From assembly GCF_002742335.1 (NCBI RefSeq), contig NZ_MDGR01000007.1, positions 1,740,501 to 1,804,500 on the forward strand: DNA of 64,000 nt, in the 5' to 3' direction. Shown piece after piece: positions 49,372 through 59,801 of this stretch (the stretch's first letter is position 1; every line of letters begins with the position of its first letter). The notes under the pieces were generated by a model. It was not told the DNA's origin and did no database searches. It saw only the letters and a list, made by a program, of their open reading frames with translations. A program made the position numbers and the translations under genes. The DNA is from Reichenbachiella sp. 5M10 (lineage in GTDB: Bacteria > Bacteroidota > Bacteroidia > Cytophagales > Cyclobacteriaceae).

Positions 49372-49444
49372 AGCCCCCTGTCGGACTCGAACCAACGACC
49401 GCCTCATTACAAGTGAGGTGCTCTACCAACTGAGCTAAGGAGGC
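49372..49444 (-). tRNA. tRNA-Thr (anticodon TGT)
   Basis: 73 bases on the minus strand starting GCCTCCTTAGCTCAGTTGGT. The acceptor stem GCCTCCT pairs with AGGGGGC with one G-U. The anticodon loop is CTTGTAA between CCTCA and TGAGG, giving TGT (Thr, ACA codons). The T arm GTTCGAGTCC is standard. No CCA is encoded. The decayed RAYT island abuts its 3' side. Confidence 0.95.
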
Positions 49445-54879: not shown

Positions 54880-55470
54880 TCACTCATCCATCATTTCCAT
54901 GCCTAGCTCGCCTTGAAGGTATTGATTGTATTGTTCGCAAGTGAGTTTGCCAGAGAGGCCAGAGTAGGGGCAGGTTTGGTATACAGCACCAAACTTTCCT
55001 TTTTGGATCAAGACACCCCCACCGTGACAGATCGGACACATGACATACTCTCCCGGACAGTCGTAGTAGTCACTGACCATGAGCTGATGGTGTGTCTCTT
55101 GTATTTCTTGTTCTTTTACTTTTTTGTACGCAGCATTGGACATGTTGAGGTAGAGTACGGCTTGATCGTAATATTGCCCAGAGGTTCCTTTGAGTTCGAC
55201 ATACTTAGTCAGCCAGTTGATGGCCTGTTTGTATTTGTCGAGATGATAAGAGTTGCGGCCAAAGTAGTAGGCCATTTCGCTAGGGAGCTTGCTGAGTTGA
55301 CCGAGCGCTTCTCTAAACAATTGATCAGCGAGGATATAGTTGCCATCGTACATGGCCTGTGCTCCTTTGTCCATATTGGTGAGACCGTCTCGTTGTACGA
55401 TTCCTTGACTATAGGCCCCTGATGACCATCCCATCACGATGAGAAGAAGTAATATGCGTAATCTATTCAC
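54880..55470 (-). CDS. Exported TPR protein with a C-terminal cysteine cluster
   Basis: A 196-residue protein with a signal peptide (MNRLRILLLLIVMGWSSG) and about three TPR-like helical hairpins (ADQLFREALGQLSKLPSEMAYYFGRNSY, YKQAINWLTKYVELKG). It ends with a Cys/Gly-rich tail: CPGEYVMCPICHGGGVLIQ, then CPYSGLSGKLTCEQY. The CPIC.GGG part looks like a DnaJ-type zinc motif, unusual on an exported protein. No family is recognised. Confidence 0.65.
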   Translation of the reverse strand: MNRLRILLLLIVMGWSSGAYSQGIVQRDGLTNMDKGAQAMYDGNYILADQLFREALGQLSKLPSEMAYYFGRNSYHLDKYKQAINWLTKYVELKGTSGQYYDQAVLYLNMSNAAYKKVKEQEIQETHHQLMVSDYYDCPGEYVMCPICHGGGVLIQKGKFGAVYQTCPYSGLSGKLTCEQYNQYLQGELGMEMMDE

Positions 55471-55604: not shown

Positions 55605-55635
55605 TTTGATATTATTCAATCAATTTTCAACTTTG
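55605..55635 (+). promoter_or_regulatory. Candidate promoter of the aromatic amino acid operon
   Basis: TTTG at 55605-55608, 19 bases, then CAACTTTG at 55628-55635, one mismatch from TAnnTTTG. Transcription would begin near 55642, about 11 bases before the leader ORF. Confidence 0.5.
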
Positions 55636-55652
55636 AGCATCAAGATATACTT

Positions 55653-55727
55653 ATGATGGAATCAAGAGCATATTGGAACTACTTTTATTTTTATTTCTAT
55701 GCAAAGGCATCAGGGGTGAAAGAATAG
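55653..55727 (+). CDS. Aromatic leader peptide (24 residues)
   Basis: A small ORF with a double ATG (55653 and 55656) encoding 24 residues. Residues 7-16 are YWNYFYFYFY: five Tyr, three Phe and one Trp in ten codons, the classic signature of a ribosome-mediated attenuator. It stops at 55725-55727, 25 bases before a strong terminator and 74 bases before the prephenate dehydratase start. Ribosome stalling at uncharged Tyr or Phe tRNA would leave the following RNA free to disrupt the terminator. The encoded peptide itself has no expected function. Confidence 0.85.
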   Translation: MMESRAYWNYFYFYFYAKASGVKE

Positions 55728-55752
55728 TTCTTTTGTGTAAACAAGAAATATG

Positions 55753-55784
55753 AAAAACCCCGAACTGTCTCGGGGTTTTTTTTT
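55753..55784 (+). terminator. Attenuator terminator before the aromatic operon
   Basis: AAAAACCCCGA (55753-55763) and TCGGGGTTTTT (55770-55780) around a 6-base loop, with T to 55784, just 17 bases before the first structural gene. No plus-strand gene precedes it except the leader ORF, so it acts on the operon's own transcript. A candidate antiterminator partner is GGGGT at 55713-55717, complementary to ACCCC at 55757-55761; the pairing is only 5 bases. Confidence 0.85.
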
Positions 55785-55801
55785 GATATAAACGTGAATA
55801 A

Positions 55802-56626
55802 ATGGAAGTTGGAATTCAGGGTGTTTTAGGGTCGTTTCATGATCAAGCTGCCACGACTTACTTTGAGGGTAAGGAATTGGACTTGAAGCCTTTTCATGAT
55901 TTTCGGTCATTGGCCAAAGCCATCCATGCCAGAGAGTTGGATTATGGTGTGATGGCTATCGAAAACACGATTGCGGGTAGCATATTACCCAATTATGCGC
56001 TGATGAATGAGTATGACTTGGAGGTTACCGGCGAGGTTTATATTAGGATAGAGATGAATTTGATAGGGCACGCTGGAGTGAAACCAGAGTCGCTCAATCA
56101 AGTATACTCACACCCAATGGCCCTTCTTCAATGTGCAGATTTTTTGGCAGAGTATCCGCGGATCAAATTGACAGAGTTTGATGATACCGCAGATAGTGTA
56201 CGACTGATCAAAGATGAAAAAATGCTGCAGGCGGGAGCAATTGCGAGCAAAAAAGCCGCTGAGCTGTTTGGTATGGAGATATTGGCTGAAAACATCGAAA
56301 CCAATAAATTGAATTATACGCGGTTTTTGATCATGAAGAGTCGTATGAACGGTCAGACATCTGTGCCCAAGAAGGCCTCTTTGCGAATTATGACCAAGCA
56401 CGAGCCAGGACGTCTCTCGGATGTGTTGGTAGTGTTCAAGGAGCATAAGATCAATATGACCAAAATACAGTCTATGCCCGTAGTGGGACAGCCGTATCGT
56501 TATGCGTTCAATATCGACGTGGCTTGGGAGGACTATCAAAACTATCAATCGGCTCTCAAGGCCATTGCCCAAAGTGCTGAATTGATAAAAATACATGGTG
56601 AATATGAAAAAGGCGTAATGCCCTGA
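55802..56626 (+). CDS. pheA: Prephenate dehydratase with ACT domain
   Basis: A 274-residue enzyme converting prephenate to phenylpyruvate, the committed step to Phe. The catalytic half has GVLGSFHDQAA, YGVMAIENTIAGSI and the NYTRF motif (the TRF Thr is catalytic); the C-terminal ACT domain (about 197-270, SLRIMTKHEPGRLSDVLVVF) would bind Phe for feedback inhibition. It is a free-standing dehydratase; chorismate mutase is on the fourth gene of the operon. First structural gene after the attenuator. Confidence 0.93.
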   Translation: MEVGIQGVLGSFHDQAATTYFEGKELDLKPFHDFRSLAKAIHARELDYGVMAIENTIAGSILPNYALMNEYDLEVTGEVYIRIEMNLIGHAGVKPESLNQVYSHPMALLQCADFLAEYPRIKLTEFDDTADSVRLIKDEKMLQAGAIASKKAAELFGMEILAENIETNKLNYTRFLIMKSRMNGQTSVPKKASLRIMTKHEPGRLSDVLVVFKEHKINMTKIQSMPVVGQPYRYAFNIDVAWEDYQNYQSALKAIAQSAELIKIHGEYEKGVMP

Positions 56627-56628
56627 TT

Positions 56629-57786
56629 ATGATAAAGGTAGCAGATAGAATAGCAGATGTAAAAGAGTACTATTTCTCCAAGAAGTTGGACGAAATCAGA
56701 GGGATGATTGCCTCTGGCAAAGATGTCATCAATTTAGGGATTGGTAGCCCTGATTTGCCACCGGCTCCAGAAGTCGCAGAGGCGTTGATTGCGAGTGCAA
56801 GCAATACGTCCAATCATGCCTATCAATCGTATCGTTCGATACCCGAATTGAGAGAGGCGATAGCCTCATTTTATGATGCACACTATGGCGTTCGGCTAGA
56901 CCCAGTTTCGGAGATTTTGCCTTTGCTAGGCTCCAAAGAAGGGGTGATGTACATTTCTATGGCATTTTTGAACGCTGGAGATACCGTCTTGATTCCCAAT
57001 CCAGGGTACCCTGCCTACAAGACCGCAGCAGAGATGATGGGAGCCAAAGTGGTGTACTACGATTTGAAAGAAGAAAACAATTGGGTACCTAAGTTTAGCT
57101 CTATTGATCGTGAAGCCGTCAAAGCGGCCAAATTGATGTGGGTCAATTATCCCAATATGCCTACAGGCAAGAAAGCCAACAAGGCGATTTTGAGTGGGCT
57201 GGTAGATTTTGCCAACGACAATGATATATTGGTGGTTAACGACAACCCTTATAGTTTTATCTTGAATGATAATCCGCTCAGTTTGTTGTCTGTAGAGGGG
57301 AGCAAGGAGAATTGCTTGGAACTCAACTCGATGAGCAAGGCTTTCAATATGGCTGGCTGGAGAGTAGGTATGGTGAGTGGACGGTCAGAATACATCGATG
57401 CGATTCTGCGTGTGAAGTCCAACGTGGACTCGGGGATGTTTAGACCTGTCCAAGATGCGGCAGTCAAGGCATTGAGCTTGCCCAAGGAGTGGTTTGCAAG
57501 CATCAACGAAGAGTATGCCAAGAGAAGGTCCTTGGCGGAAAAGCTACTGGATGTACTTGGGTGTGCTCATGACGAAGAACAATCGGGTATGTTTTTGTGG
57601 GCGAAAATCCCAAGAGGCAGGCAAAGCGAGGAGTTTATAGAGGAAATTTTGCAAGAAAAGCACGTATTTATTACTCCGGGGACTATTTTTGGTTCCAATG
57701 GAGAGGGGTATATCCGGATTTCTTTGTGCTCCACACAAGAAGTCCTCAAAACAGTCTTGCAAAGACTAGAATCAATAAAGGCATGA
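56629..57786 (+). CDS. Class I/II aminotransferase, probably of aromatic amino acids or prephenate
   Basis: A 385-residue PLP enzyme. Features: NLGIGSPDLPP near the start, LLGSKEGVMYISMAFLN, NPGYPAYKTAA, WVNYPNMPTG, NDNPYSFIL and the Schiff-base Lys237 in SMSKAFNMAGWRVGM. Between the dehydratase and dehydrogenase genes it would aminate phenylpyruvate and 4-hydroxyphenylpyruvate, or prephenate itself (arogenate route); sequence alone does not tell these apart. It overlaps tyrA by 4 bases. Confidence 0.9.
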   Translation: MIKVADRIADVKEYYFSKKLDEIRGMIASGKDVINLGIGSPDLPPAPEVAEALIASASNTSNHAYQSYRSIPELREAIASFYDAHYGVRLDPVSEILPLLGSKEGVMYISMAFLNAGDTVLIPNPGYPAYKTAAEMMGAKVVYYDLKEENNWVPKFSSIDREAVKAAKLMWVNYPNMPTGKKANKAILSGLVDFANDNDILVVNDNPYSFILNDNPLSLLSVEGSKENCLELNSMSKAFNMAGWRVGMVSGRSEYIDAILRVKSNVDSGMFRPVQDAAVKALSLPKEWFASINEEYAKRRSLAEKLLDVLGCAHDEEQSGMFLWAKIPRGRQSEEFIEEILQEKHVFITPGTIFGSNGEGYIRISLCSTQEVLKTVLQRLESIKA

Positions 57787-58670
57787 TTGTATCAATTATA
57801 GGTTTAGGATTGATTGGAGGATCGGTAGGCAAGCGACTCAAGGAAGTAGGTTTTGCAGACCAAATTTTGGGCGTAGACCTAAGTGATGATCACTGTAAAA
57901 AAGCGGTTGAACTGGGGCTGGTCGATGAGACGGTGATTTTTCAACAAGCCGTAAGTGTATCAGATTTGATCATCTTGGCTATCCCCGTGGACGGTATGAC
58001 CAAGCTGTTGCCTGCCTTGCTGGATCAGATCGGAGAAGGGACTACGGTGATGGATTTGGGGTCGACCAAAGAGCAAATCTGTGCAGTAGTACAAGGGCAT
58101 AACAATCGTAAGAGTTTTGTCGCAGCTCACCCTATTGCAGGTACTGAGAATTCTGGGCCAGAGGCAGCATTTTCGACACTGTTTGAAGGCAAAACTGGGA
58201 TTATCTGTGATGCAGAGGAATCACAGGGTTCTTCGTATGTGTTGGCAAAGTCGTGCTTGGAGAACTTGGGAATGCACATCATTGAGATGGAGAGCAAATC
58301 CCATGATTTGCATATTGCGTATGTATCTCATATCTCGCACATTAGTTCTTTTATACTCGGTCAGACGGTCTTGGAGATTGAAAAGAACGAGGCGAATATT
58401 TTCAACTTGGCAGGTAGTGGTTTTGCTTCCACGGTTAGACTAGCGAAGAGTTCACCTCAGATGTGGGCGCCGATTTTTAAGCAAAATAAGAAGCATATTA
58501 GTGACGCGCTGGGCGCGTATATAGATAATCTAGCGGCGTTCAAGGCACTGCTGGATCAGGGAGAAGAGGATGCCATGATTGCATGCATGGATAACGCCAA
58601 CGAAATCCGTAGGGTTTTGAAAGGTATCGATAGTAAGAAAGTACAAAGTATTAAAGAAGAAGTAGTATAA
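57783..58670 (+). CDS. tyrA: Prephenate dehydrogenase
   Basis: A 295-residue NAD-dependent enzyme from the ATG at 57783, inside an ATGA overlap with the aminotransferase stop. The NAD loop is IIGLGLIGGSVGKRL; HPIAGTENSGPEAAF carries the prephenate-site residues; SHISHISSFILGQ is the conserved core helix. It makes 4-hydroxyphenylpyruvate for Tyr. A longer frame upstream inside the aminotransferase gene is not real. No ACT domain follows. Confidence 0.94.
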   Translation: MIVSIIGLGLIGGSVGKRLKEVGFADQILGVDLSDDHCKKAVELGLVDETVIFQQAVSVSDLIILAIPVDGMTKLLPALLDQIGEGTTVMDLGSTKEQICAVVQGHNNRKSFVAAHPIAGTENSGPEAAFSTLFEGKTGIICDAEESQGSSYVLAKSCLENLGMHIIEMESKSHDLHIAYVSHISHISSFILGQTVLEIEKNEANIFNLAGSGFASTVRLAKSSPQMWAPIFKQNKKHISDALGAYIDNLAAFKALLDQGEEDAMIACMDNANEIRRVLKGIDSKKVQSIKEEVV

Positions 58671-58688: not shown

Positions 58689-59801
58689 ATGAAAATTAAT
58701 TTGACTTTATCACCCATGGAGAACTGGATTGAGGGGATGAACACCCCTTTGATCATCGGTGGGCCATGTAGCGCAGAAAGTGAAGAGCAAGTATTGGAAA
58801 CAGCTCGTCAGATCAAAGCAAATACCAATATTCAAGTGTTGAGAGCAGGTATTTGGAAGCCAAGAACTAGACCGGGAGCCTTTGAAGGGATCGGTGTAGT
58901 AGGGCTCAAATGGTTGGAAAAAGCGAAAGCAGAGACAGGTTTGTTGACGGCCGTAGAAGTTGCCAACGCAGAGCACGTAGAGTTGGCGTTGAAATTCAAC
59001 GTAGACATCCTTTGGGTAGGAGCCAGAACGACGGTGAACCCATTCTCAGTACAGGAAGTAGCAGATGCGTTGAAGGGACATGATGTGCCTGTATTGGTCA
59101 AGAACCCAATCAATCCAGATCTACAGTTGTGGATTGGAGCTTTGGAGCGTATCAACCAAGCTGGGATCACCAAATTAGGAGGTATCCATAGAGGGTTCTC
59201 TGCCAAAAGTGGGTCTCAATACAGAAACGATCCGACTTGGGAGATTCCGATCGAGTTGAAGAGATTGGTGCCAAACTTGCCAATCATCTGTGATCCTAGT
59301 CATATTGCGGGCAACAGAGCTTTGATTGAGCCTGTATCACAGAAGGCATTTGACCTTCAGATGGATGGTGTGATGATCGAGTCACATATTGATCCTGACA
59401 ATGCACTTAGCGACGCTAAGCAGCAGATCACACCCAAGACCTTGGGAGATATCTTGGATAGATTGATCATCAGAGATGCCAATTCGGAAGATGTAGATTT
59501 CGAAATTAGATTGAAAAACCTCAGAGAGAAAATCGATAAGATTGACAATGAGTTGCTTGAAGTATTGGCTCAAAGAATGCAGGTAGCTGAAGAGATTGCT
59601 TTGCACAAGAAAGAGCACAATATCACTATCCTACAAGTAGGTAGATACGAAGAGATCATGGAAAATCGTGTCAAAAAAGGCAAGGACTTGTTGCTGCAGG
59701 AGCAGTTTGTACATGATCTATATGAGATGATACACAACAATTCTATCAAACGTCAGACCGCCATCATGAATACCGATGAGTCCAAAGCGGAGAAGGCTTA
59801 A
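58689..59801 (+). CDS. DAHP synthase fused to C-terminal chorismate mutase
   Basis: A 370-residue bifunctional enzyme. Residues about 1-265 are a type I-beta DAHP synthase: IIGGPCSAESEEQVLE, LRAGIWKPRTRPGAFEG, GARTTVNPFSVQE, KLGGIHRGFS and CDPSHIAGNR (metal ligands include the Cys and His). Residues about 275-360 are an AroQ-type chorismate mutase (LKNLREKIDKIDNELLEVLAQRM...HKKEHN). It makes the first shikimate-pathway product and converts chorismate to prephenate, supplying the dehydratase and dehydrogenase encoded upstream. The mutase may also act as an allosteric sensor. Confidence 0.94.
   Translation: MKINLTLSPMENWIEGMNTPLIIGGPCSAESEEQVLETARQIKANTNIQVLRAGIWKPRTRPGAFEGIGVVGLKWLEKAKAETGLLTAVEVANAEHVELALKFNVDILWVGARTTVNPFSVQEVADALKGHDVPVLVKNPINPDLQLWIGALERINQAGITKLGGIHRGFSAKSGSQYRNDPTWEIPIELKRLVPNLPIICDPSHIAGNRALIEPVSQKAFDLQMDGVMIESHIDPDNALSDAKQQITPKTLGDILDRLIIRDANSEDVDFEIRLKNLREKIDKIDNELLEVLAQRMQVAEEIALHKKEHNITILQVGRYEEIMENRVKKGKDLLLQEQFVHDLYEMIHNNSIKRQTAIMNTDESKAEKA

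Follow-up and report, generated by a model that had tools for sequence, protein, structure and literature searches.

The pheA gene of Reichenbachiella sp. 5M10 (Bacteroidota, Cytophagales) is, with a probability of roughly 0.93, preceded by a classical ribosome-mediated transcription attenuator which reads the supply of phenylalanine and tyrosine. The region lies within a stretch of 64,000 nucleotides of genomic DNA (hereafter, the window), and an earlier note on that stretch had already interpreted it as an attenuator. The support for this interpretation comes from sequence comparison: an aromatic leader that recurs before pheA and is conserved among relatives, the terminators that follow it, an antiterminator pairing that covaries, and a spacing between the aromatic codons and the antiterminator that corresponds to the footprint of a ribosome.

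Leader, terminator and operon in the window

A 24-codon aromatic open reading frame (ORF) situated between a promoter match and a terminator ahead of the pheA operon, as the earlier note had described it, was confirmed on the sequence (Table 1). Nine of the ten residues encoded by codons 7-16 of this ORF are aromatic. When aromatic, His, Trp and ILV leaders were sought on both strands of the 64-kb window by density and terminator criteria, this leader was the sole match. In the whole genome, 27 six-codon Phe/Tyr runs were counted, several of them overlapping, against 16 for a reversed control pattern; a second leader was not recognised among the stop-to-stop frames listed for them, and the three His-run matches in the genome had no leader-like appearance. 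The window also carries a tRNA gene at positions 49372-49444 on the minus strand.

The terminator is located 24 nt 3' of the leader stop codon and 20 nt 5' of the pheA ATG, and the fold of positions 55752-55790 has an energy of -16.5 kcal/mol (z -4.65). The four genes that follow overlap by as much as 7 nt or stand as much as 18 nt apart, and the tyrA match alone passed the curated cut-off among them.

Table 1. Features of the putative pheA attenuator and its operon, in window coordinates
Feature	Position	Strand	Basis
Promoter-like TTTG-N19-CAACTTTG, Bacteroidota sigma-ABfr type, -33 and -7 boxes	55605..55635	+	Sequence match; TTTG at 55605-55608, CAACTTTG at 55628-55635
Leader ORF, 24 codons, MMESRAYWNYFYFYFYAKASGVKE	55653..55727	+	Read from sequence; ATG at 55653, TAG at 55725-55727
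Control codons Y W N Y F Y F Y F Y (codons 7-16)	55671..55700	+	Sequence; density recurs in relatives
Region 1, predicted partner of region 2 (1:2 protector hairpin)	55690..55702	+	Folding only
Region 2, GGGGT, predicted antiterminator 5' arm	55713..55717	+	Fold, arm search, pair counts
Region 3, ACCCC, common to predicted antiterminator and terminator 5' arm	55757..55761	+	Fold, pair counts
Intrinsic terminator (3:4 hairpin, 12 pairs) and T-run	55752..55784	+	Hairpin 55752-55781, T-run to 55784
pheA, prephenate dehydratase, predicted first regulated gene	55802..56626	+	PRK11898, E 4.7e-53, 180 bits, below curated cut-off of 219
Aminotransferase	56629..57786	+	Best match LL-diaminopimelate aminotransferase, below cut-off
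tyrA, prephenate dehydrogenase	57780..58670	+	PRK08507, 360 bits, above cut-off
DAHP synthase joined to chorismate mutase domain (DAHPS/CM)	58689..59801	+	E 9.3e-52 and 8e-12, both below cut-off

Recurrence of the leader upstream of pheA

A comparison of pheA-upstream regions across the order, which had been proposed as a check of the attenuation reading, was carried out, and aromatic short ORFs, hairpins and covariation were found. The order-level sample comprised 157 such regions, taken in order of match quality. The family of the window supplied 120 (the best 120 of 173 matching genomes, 295 searched) and the order's other families 37 (the best 37 of 136 matching genomes, 194 searched at 1e-20), the weaker matches being longer PheA proteins outside the sample. 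One locus, L045, came without upstream sequence, and 156 regions were usable. A leader was counted where the 450-nt upstream stretch held an ORF of 8-75 amino acids with at least 6 aromatic residues in 8. Among these best matches, 81/156 usable regions carry an aromatic leader (67/120 in the family and 14/37 in the other families), and the same criterion was satisfied by 3/156 opposite strands, by 32/3120 dinucleotide shuffles and by 6/674 flank stretches (1/337, and 5/337 in reverse). One of the 81 leaders, that of L139, runs into the start of pheA and is probably due to chance. Within the genus, the leader was present in all eight genomes examined, for example as MKNSRAYWNYFYFYYYAKASGVKE in R. 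agariperforans and MNKNKSYYNYFYYFYYSVEAR in R. versicolor, whose PheA proteins are 82% and 73% identical to that of the window, respectively.

The wider phylum was represented by 63 further genomes, mostly the best matches of 243 matching ones (296 searched), and 40 of them have an aromatic leader. By family label, leaders were counted in 7/7 (f23), 7/8 (f24), 14/26 (f26), 5/5 (f27) and 2/2 (f30) regions; by class, in 35/48 regions inside the class of the window and in 5/15 outside it. Ten of the 12 misses in f26 have a leader-like peptide such as FYFSNSFYFFF, which scores 5 of 8. In several families outside the class (L163, L165, L168 and other matches), the open frame that contains PheA is about 670-740 amino acids long, which suggests fusion proteins.

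About half of the order-level regions have no leader, and 12 of these are accounted for by the position of pheA behind another gene. Among the 78 loci with long flanks, a leader was found in 0/12 where pheA follows a same-strand ORF by less than 100 nt and in 45/66 of the others. In five of the 12 loci, the preceding ORF, as read by eye, begins like EPSP synthase (aroA). Five loci under one genus label, g3 (L011, L020, L022, L023 and L028), have pheA 5-12 nt behind an aroA-like gene and no leader. Since the leader is absent where pheA follows an aroA-like gene, the attenuator appears to be tied to operons that start with pheA. No aromatic leader was detected in the 235-271 nt before the aroA-like gene in five loci, and four others had almost no upstream sequence there, which makes this a weak negative.

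Two aromatic leaders in series precede pheA in L026, L149 and L154 (f13) and in L225 (f27). In L225, a terminator-like hairpin follows each of the two leaders, and tandem attenuation is likely. In L026, L149 and L154, the plus-strand scan detects the first hairpin only, the second being an interrupted inverted repeat with a T-run noticed by eye; tandem attenuation is possible there. L227 was dropped as a fifth tandem locus, as no hairpin was seen between its two aromatic ORFs.

The promoter-like element of the window has a spacer of 19 nt, and the first base of its -7 box deviates from the Bacteroidota consensus, given as TTTG / TAnnTTTG in passages of PMC7366714. A form of this consensus, TTG-N17-23-TAnnTTTG, was found in 18 of the 79 leader regions (shuffles 0.6%), and every one of these matches ends 17-21 nt 5' of the leader ATG. 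The window, in which the corresponding distance is 17 nt, fits only a relaxed form, present in 17/79 regions (shuffles 0.2%). The constancy of this distance in relatives supports both the assignment of the start codon and a very short 5' leader.

Terminator and antiterminator

A terminator-like hairpin lies between leader and pheA in 79 of the 81 order-level loci, compared with 45/1620 dinucleotide shuffles of these stretches and with 8/75 regions without an aromatic leader. In the wider phylum, 35 of the 40 leaders are accompanied by such a hairpin, and five have no terminator by the criterion used. Eight f26 loci (L177, L178, L179, L182, L215, L216, L218 and L221) combine leader-like peptides (FYFSNxFYFFF and similar) with no terminator by this criterion, which may reflect a differing hairpin or T-run, or a varied mechanism. 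In the alignment of 79 sequences, 96% of the terminator cells are paired and 65 cells are changed on both sides, and the terminator surpasses 500/500 shuffles on all five measures. At the genus level, it was above shuffles on three of the five measures (4/500 each) and not on the other two (105/500 and 488/500).

To find the antiterminator, the RNA from the last aromatic codon to the hairpin was paired against the 5' arm of the hairpin in each of the 79 loci. The best pairings of the segment so found (arm 2) with the terminator ranged from -9.9 to -20.3 kcal/mol. Arm 2 pairs with its own terminator at a mean of -15.2 kcal/mol, against -11.5 (sd 0.3) after terminators were swapped among the loci, and 0/2000 swaps were as good; for the 35 phylum leaders the values were -16.0 and -10.6 (sd 0.5), again with 0/2000 as good, in a test that kinship of the sequences inflates. 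With sequence-dissimilar terminators the mean pairing was -10.1, and the own terminator surpassed every dissimilar one in 36/79 loci. Taken locus by locus, at most 2/200 shuffles were as good in 34/79 order-level loci and in 28/35 phylum loci.

In the 79-sequence alignment, 81% of the antiterminator cells are paired and 42 are changed on both sides, with 500/500 shuffles surpassed; two measures were not above shuffles (pairs changed on both sides, 313/500; pair types, 455/500), and on the others kinship alone can exceed shuffles. The genus-level pair count gave 202/500, partly because three rows of the alignment have arm 2 one column off and one row has it in the wrong place. The pairing changes along with the terminator: the window has GGGGT:ACCCC, R. 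versicolor has CGAGGT:GCCTCG, much of the family has CGGGACTT:AAGTCCCG, and other loci have AGAAGGGCT:AGCCCTTCT and GAACGAGT:ACTCGTTC.

GGGGT:ACCCC is the predicted antiterminator of the window. The pairing was proposed in the earlier note, where the antiterminator was called the weak point; this holds for the window taken alone, as the helix is short and unremarkable there (-10.0 kcal/mol, 21/200 shuffles as good), and the wider set of loci settles the matter through covariation across the 79 and the 35 loci. The second pairing put forward with it, AGTTC:GAACT, is not conserved and was rejected: it crosses GGGGT:ACCCC in pseudoknot order, and GAACT reaches into the terminator loop, a part whose sequence is not shared by the seven other genomes examined in the genus.

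Ribosome position and order of folding

A ribosome covers approximately 12 nt past the first base of its A-site codon. Across the 79 loci, arm 2 starts at a median of 13 nt (IQR 12-14) past the first base of the last aromatic codon, which suggests that the antiterminator arm sits at about the edge of a stalled ribosome if the footprint has its standard length. With a 12-nt footprint assumed, a stall at the last aromatic codon would leave arm 2 wholly free in 51/79 loci, a stall one codon earlier in 74 and two codons earlier in 77. On reaching the stop codon, the ribosome would overlap arm 2 by at least 3 nt in 60/79.

Region 1 is a candidate for sequestering arm 2 in the period when no ribosome stalls. 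In the window, 3/100 shuffles were as good as the 1:2 fold, and in the predicted folds of all 79 loci three or more bases of arm 2 have an upstream partner. At most 5/100 shuffles were as good in 28 of these loci, and 50/100 or more in four. Covariation of the 1:2 hairpin was not detected in the pair test on the alignment of relatives.

The outcome of folding in the window depends on which part of the RNA is available. In the fold of positions 55709-55769, where region 1 is covered and the 3' arm of the terminator is still unmade, the helix 55713-55717:55757-55761 forms at -13.2; in the fold of 55728-55790, where arm 2 is covered, the terminator forms at -20.4. In the complete RNA, 55709-55790, the terminator prevails over the antiterminator even with region 1 removed, so that antitermination would have to be kinetic. 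This is usual for ribosome-mediated attenuators.

Proposed mechanism

Of the parts of the mechanism, we infer where transcription starts, that the 1:2 hairpin forms, that the ribosome stalls, that the switch responds to Phe or Tyr, and that the competition between folds is kinetic. Transcription would begin about a dozen nucleotides 5' of the leader ATG, and a ribosome would translate the leader while RNA polymerase proceeds. With ample Phe-tRNA and Tyr-tRNA, the ribosome would pass the aromatic codons and reach the stop codon, where region 2 (GGGGT) would be either covered or paired back to region 1. Region 2 being sequestered, the 3:4 terminator would form and transcription would end before pheA. 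When Phe or Tyr is short, the ribosome would stall on the aromatic codons and cover region 1, leaving region 2 free just past its footprint to pair with region 3 (ACCCC) while region 4 has yet to be transcribed. This 2:3 pairing would preclude the terminator, and the pheA-aminotransferase-tyrA-DAHPS/CM operon would be transcribed. Through the interleaving of Phe and Tyr codons, the leader would act as an OR gate with the operon's two products as its inputs.

Alternative explanations and the amino acids sensed

The classical pheA leader is Phe-only, and Phe codons outnumber Tyr codons in 54 of the 79 leaders. Both points count for an attenuator reading phenylalanine alone (or tyrosine alone), with the remaining aromatic codons incidental. 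We consider this unlikely, as Phe and Tyr occur together in 79/79 leader peptides, Tyr equals or exceeds Phe in 25/79, the operon makes both amino acids, and the control stretch of the window holds 5 Tyr and 3 Phe. In total, the 79 leaders contain 355 Phe, 281 Tyr and 34 Trp among 1769 residues. This composition is consistent with control by the supply of both Phe and Tyr through an OR gate, as we infer it to operate, and either amino acid by itself makes up only a part of the control codons. A single switch reading two or three tRNA pools had been suggested from the window; the Phe and Tyr part of that suggestion agrees with the make-up of the leaders, whereas Trp as a third sensed pool, and with it a three-pool switch, is not supported, since Trp is present in only 31/79 leaders.

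Control might also act mainly on translation or mRNA stability, with the leader altering access to the pheA start, and the end of the hairpin only 20 nt 5' of pheA would suit such a role. This explanation is improbable, for the hairpin is followed by T-runs typical of intrinsic terminators, and in a number of relatives it ends 60-200 nt 5' of the pheA match, too distant to mask the pheA start.

A terminator with an alternative pairing would serve any attenuator, including one in which a riboswitch, an RNA-binding protein or a T-box-like sensor of tRNA is in charge and the ORF is a by-product. The probability of such a regulator is very low. In the window and eight relatives, no Rfam regulatory family, whether leader or T-box, reached the gathering threshold, and only a tRNA passed it. 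Neither the length nor the sequence of the RNA is constant between the stop codon and the terminator. What recurs is the aromatic codons in frame and their distance to arm 2, which has the length of a footprint; both are things that a ribosome would read.

Finally, there is next to no chance that the hairpin simply terminates a neighbouring gene and that AT-rich sequence has produced the aromatic ORF by accident, a view for which the 27 Phe/Tyr runs in the genome against 16 in the reversed control may be cited: the gene 5' of the leader (54880-55470) is divergent, so that the hairpin at 55752-55781 is not its terminator and instead lies between the promoter match and pheA, and the recurrence and covariation in relatives contradict chance.

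Significance

Beyond ribosome-mediated attenuation in the window itself, we think it fairly probable that these loci represent an old, phylum-wide family of Bacteroidota attenuators which act as a Phe and Tyr OR gate and stand two in series in a few genomes. One candidate would thereby become a defined regulatory family with a comparative footprint over several Bacteroidota families. If this is true, the survival of the family implies that, in a phylum whose promoters are of a type of their own, these loci are transcribed with a ribosome close behind RNA polymerase. As the switch works only with a ribosome close behind the polymerase, the leader offers a direct test of transcription-translation coupling in Bacteroidota. 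In addition, a natural sensor with two inputs, Phe and Tyr, together with the apparent series arrangements, would lend itself to measurable response curves.

The attenuator was missed by the profile libraries searched, with no NCBIfam match and no Rfam match at gathering. The NCBIfam search, made with seven leader peptides, gave 0 matches at E up to 10, in a procedure whose HMMER filters can lose such short peptides.

Comparison with known systems

The pheA leader of gamma-proteobacteria combines an aromatic peptide, alternative hairpins which share a terminator arm, and an intrinsic terminator before the prephenate dehydratase gene. The element of the window is like this leader (Rfam Phe_leader, RF01859) in its aromatic leader peptide, in its predicted shared terminator arm and in the position of the terminator 5' of the prephenate dehydratase gene. 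It differs in its sub-threshold score (27.5 bits against a gathering score of 55, E 0.47), in a peptide that mixes Tyr with Phe, in an operon that adds tyrA, the aminotransferase and DAHPS/CM, and in its phylum and promoter type.

Leaders that read more than one amino acid are known from the ilvGMEDA and thr operons of E. coli. The proposed switch resembles them in its multi-amino-acid reading and is unlike them in the amino acids sensed, the operon and the group of organisms. The name of the Bacteroid-trp motif (RF01692) suggests a link to trp genes. This motif, entered in a table of PMC2864571 and a candidate cis-regulatory RNA of Bacteroidetes, is comparable to our element in that respect and differs from it in that no match to RF01692 was found in the genome of the window.

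Among the publications listed as matches, judged by their titles and the openings of their abstracts, none describes a Phe/Tyr leader in Bacteroidota. Passages of PMC7366714 mention sORFs reminiscent of attenuating leaders in Bacteroides, and passages of PMC1262725 report that no conserved Phe or Tyr element was found in Actinobacteria and name T-boxes as the tyrosine regulators elsewhere. With a sub-threshold Phe_leader score and no paper on a Bacteroidota Phe/Tyr leader found in that list, the predicted element is classed with the ribosome-mediated attenuators and not with RF01859.

The remark in the earlier note that such leaders are little described in Bacteroidota is right, which is not to say undescribed. 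Passages of PMC9723704 (2021) report 'strong clues' of leader-peptide attenuation before amino-acid biosynthesis operons in Flavobacterium psychrophilum, as well as a conserved structured 5' element before pheA in Flavobacteriaceae with no Rfam hit. These passages contain no analysis of the peptide, codons, antiterminator or cross-phylum distribution of the pheA element. It shares the gene name and the phylum with the attenuator of the window, and from what these passages say of it, the two probably belong to the same family.
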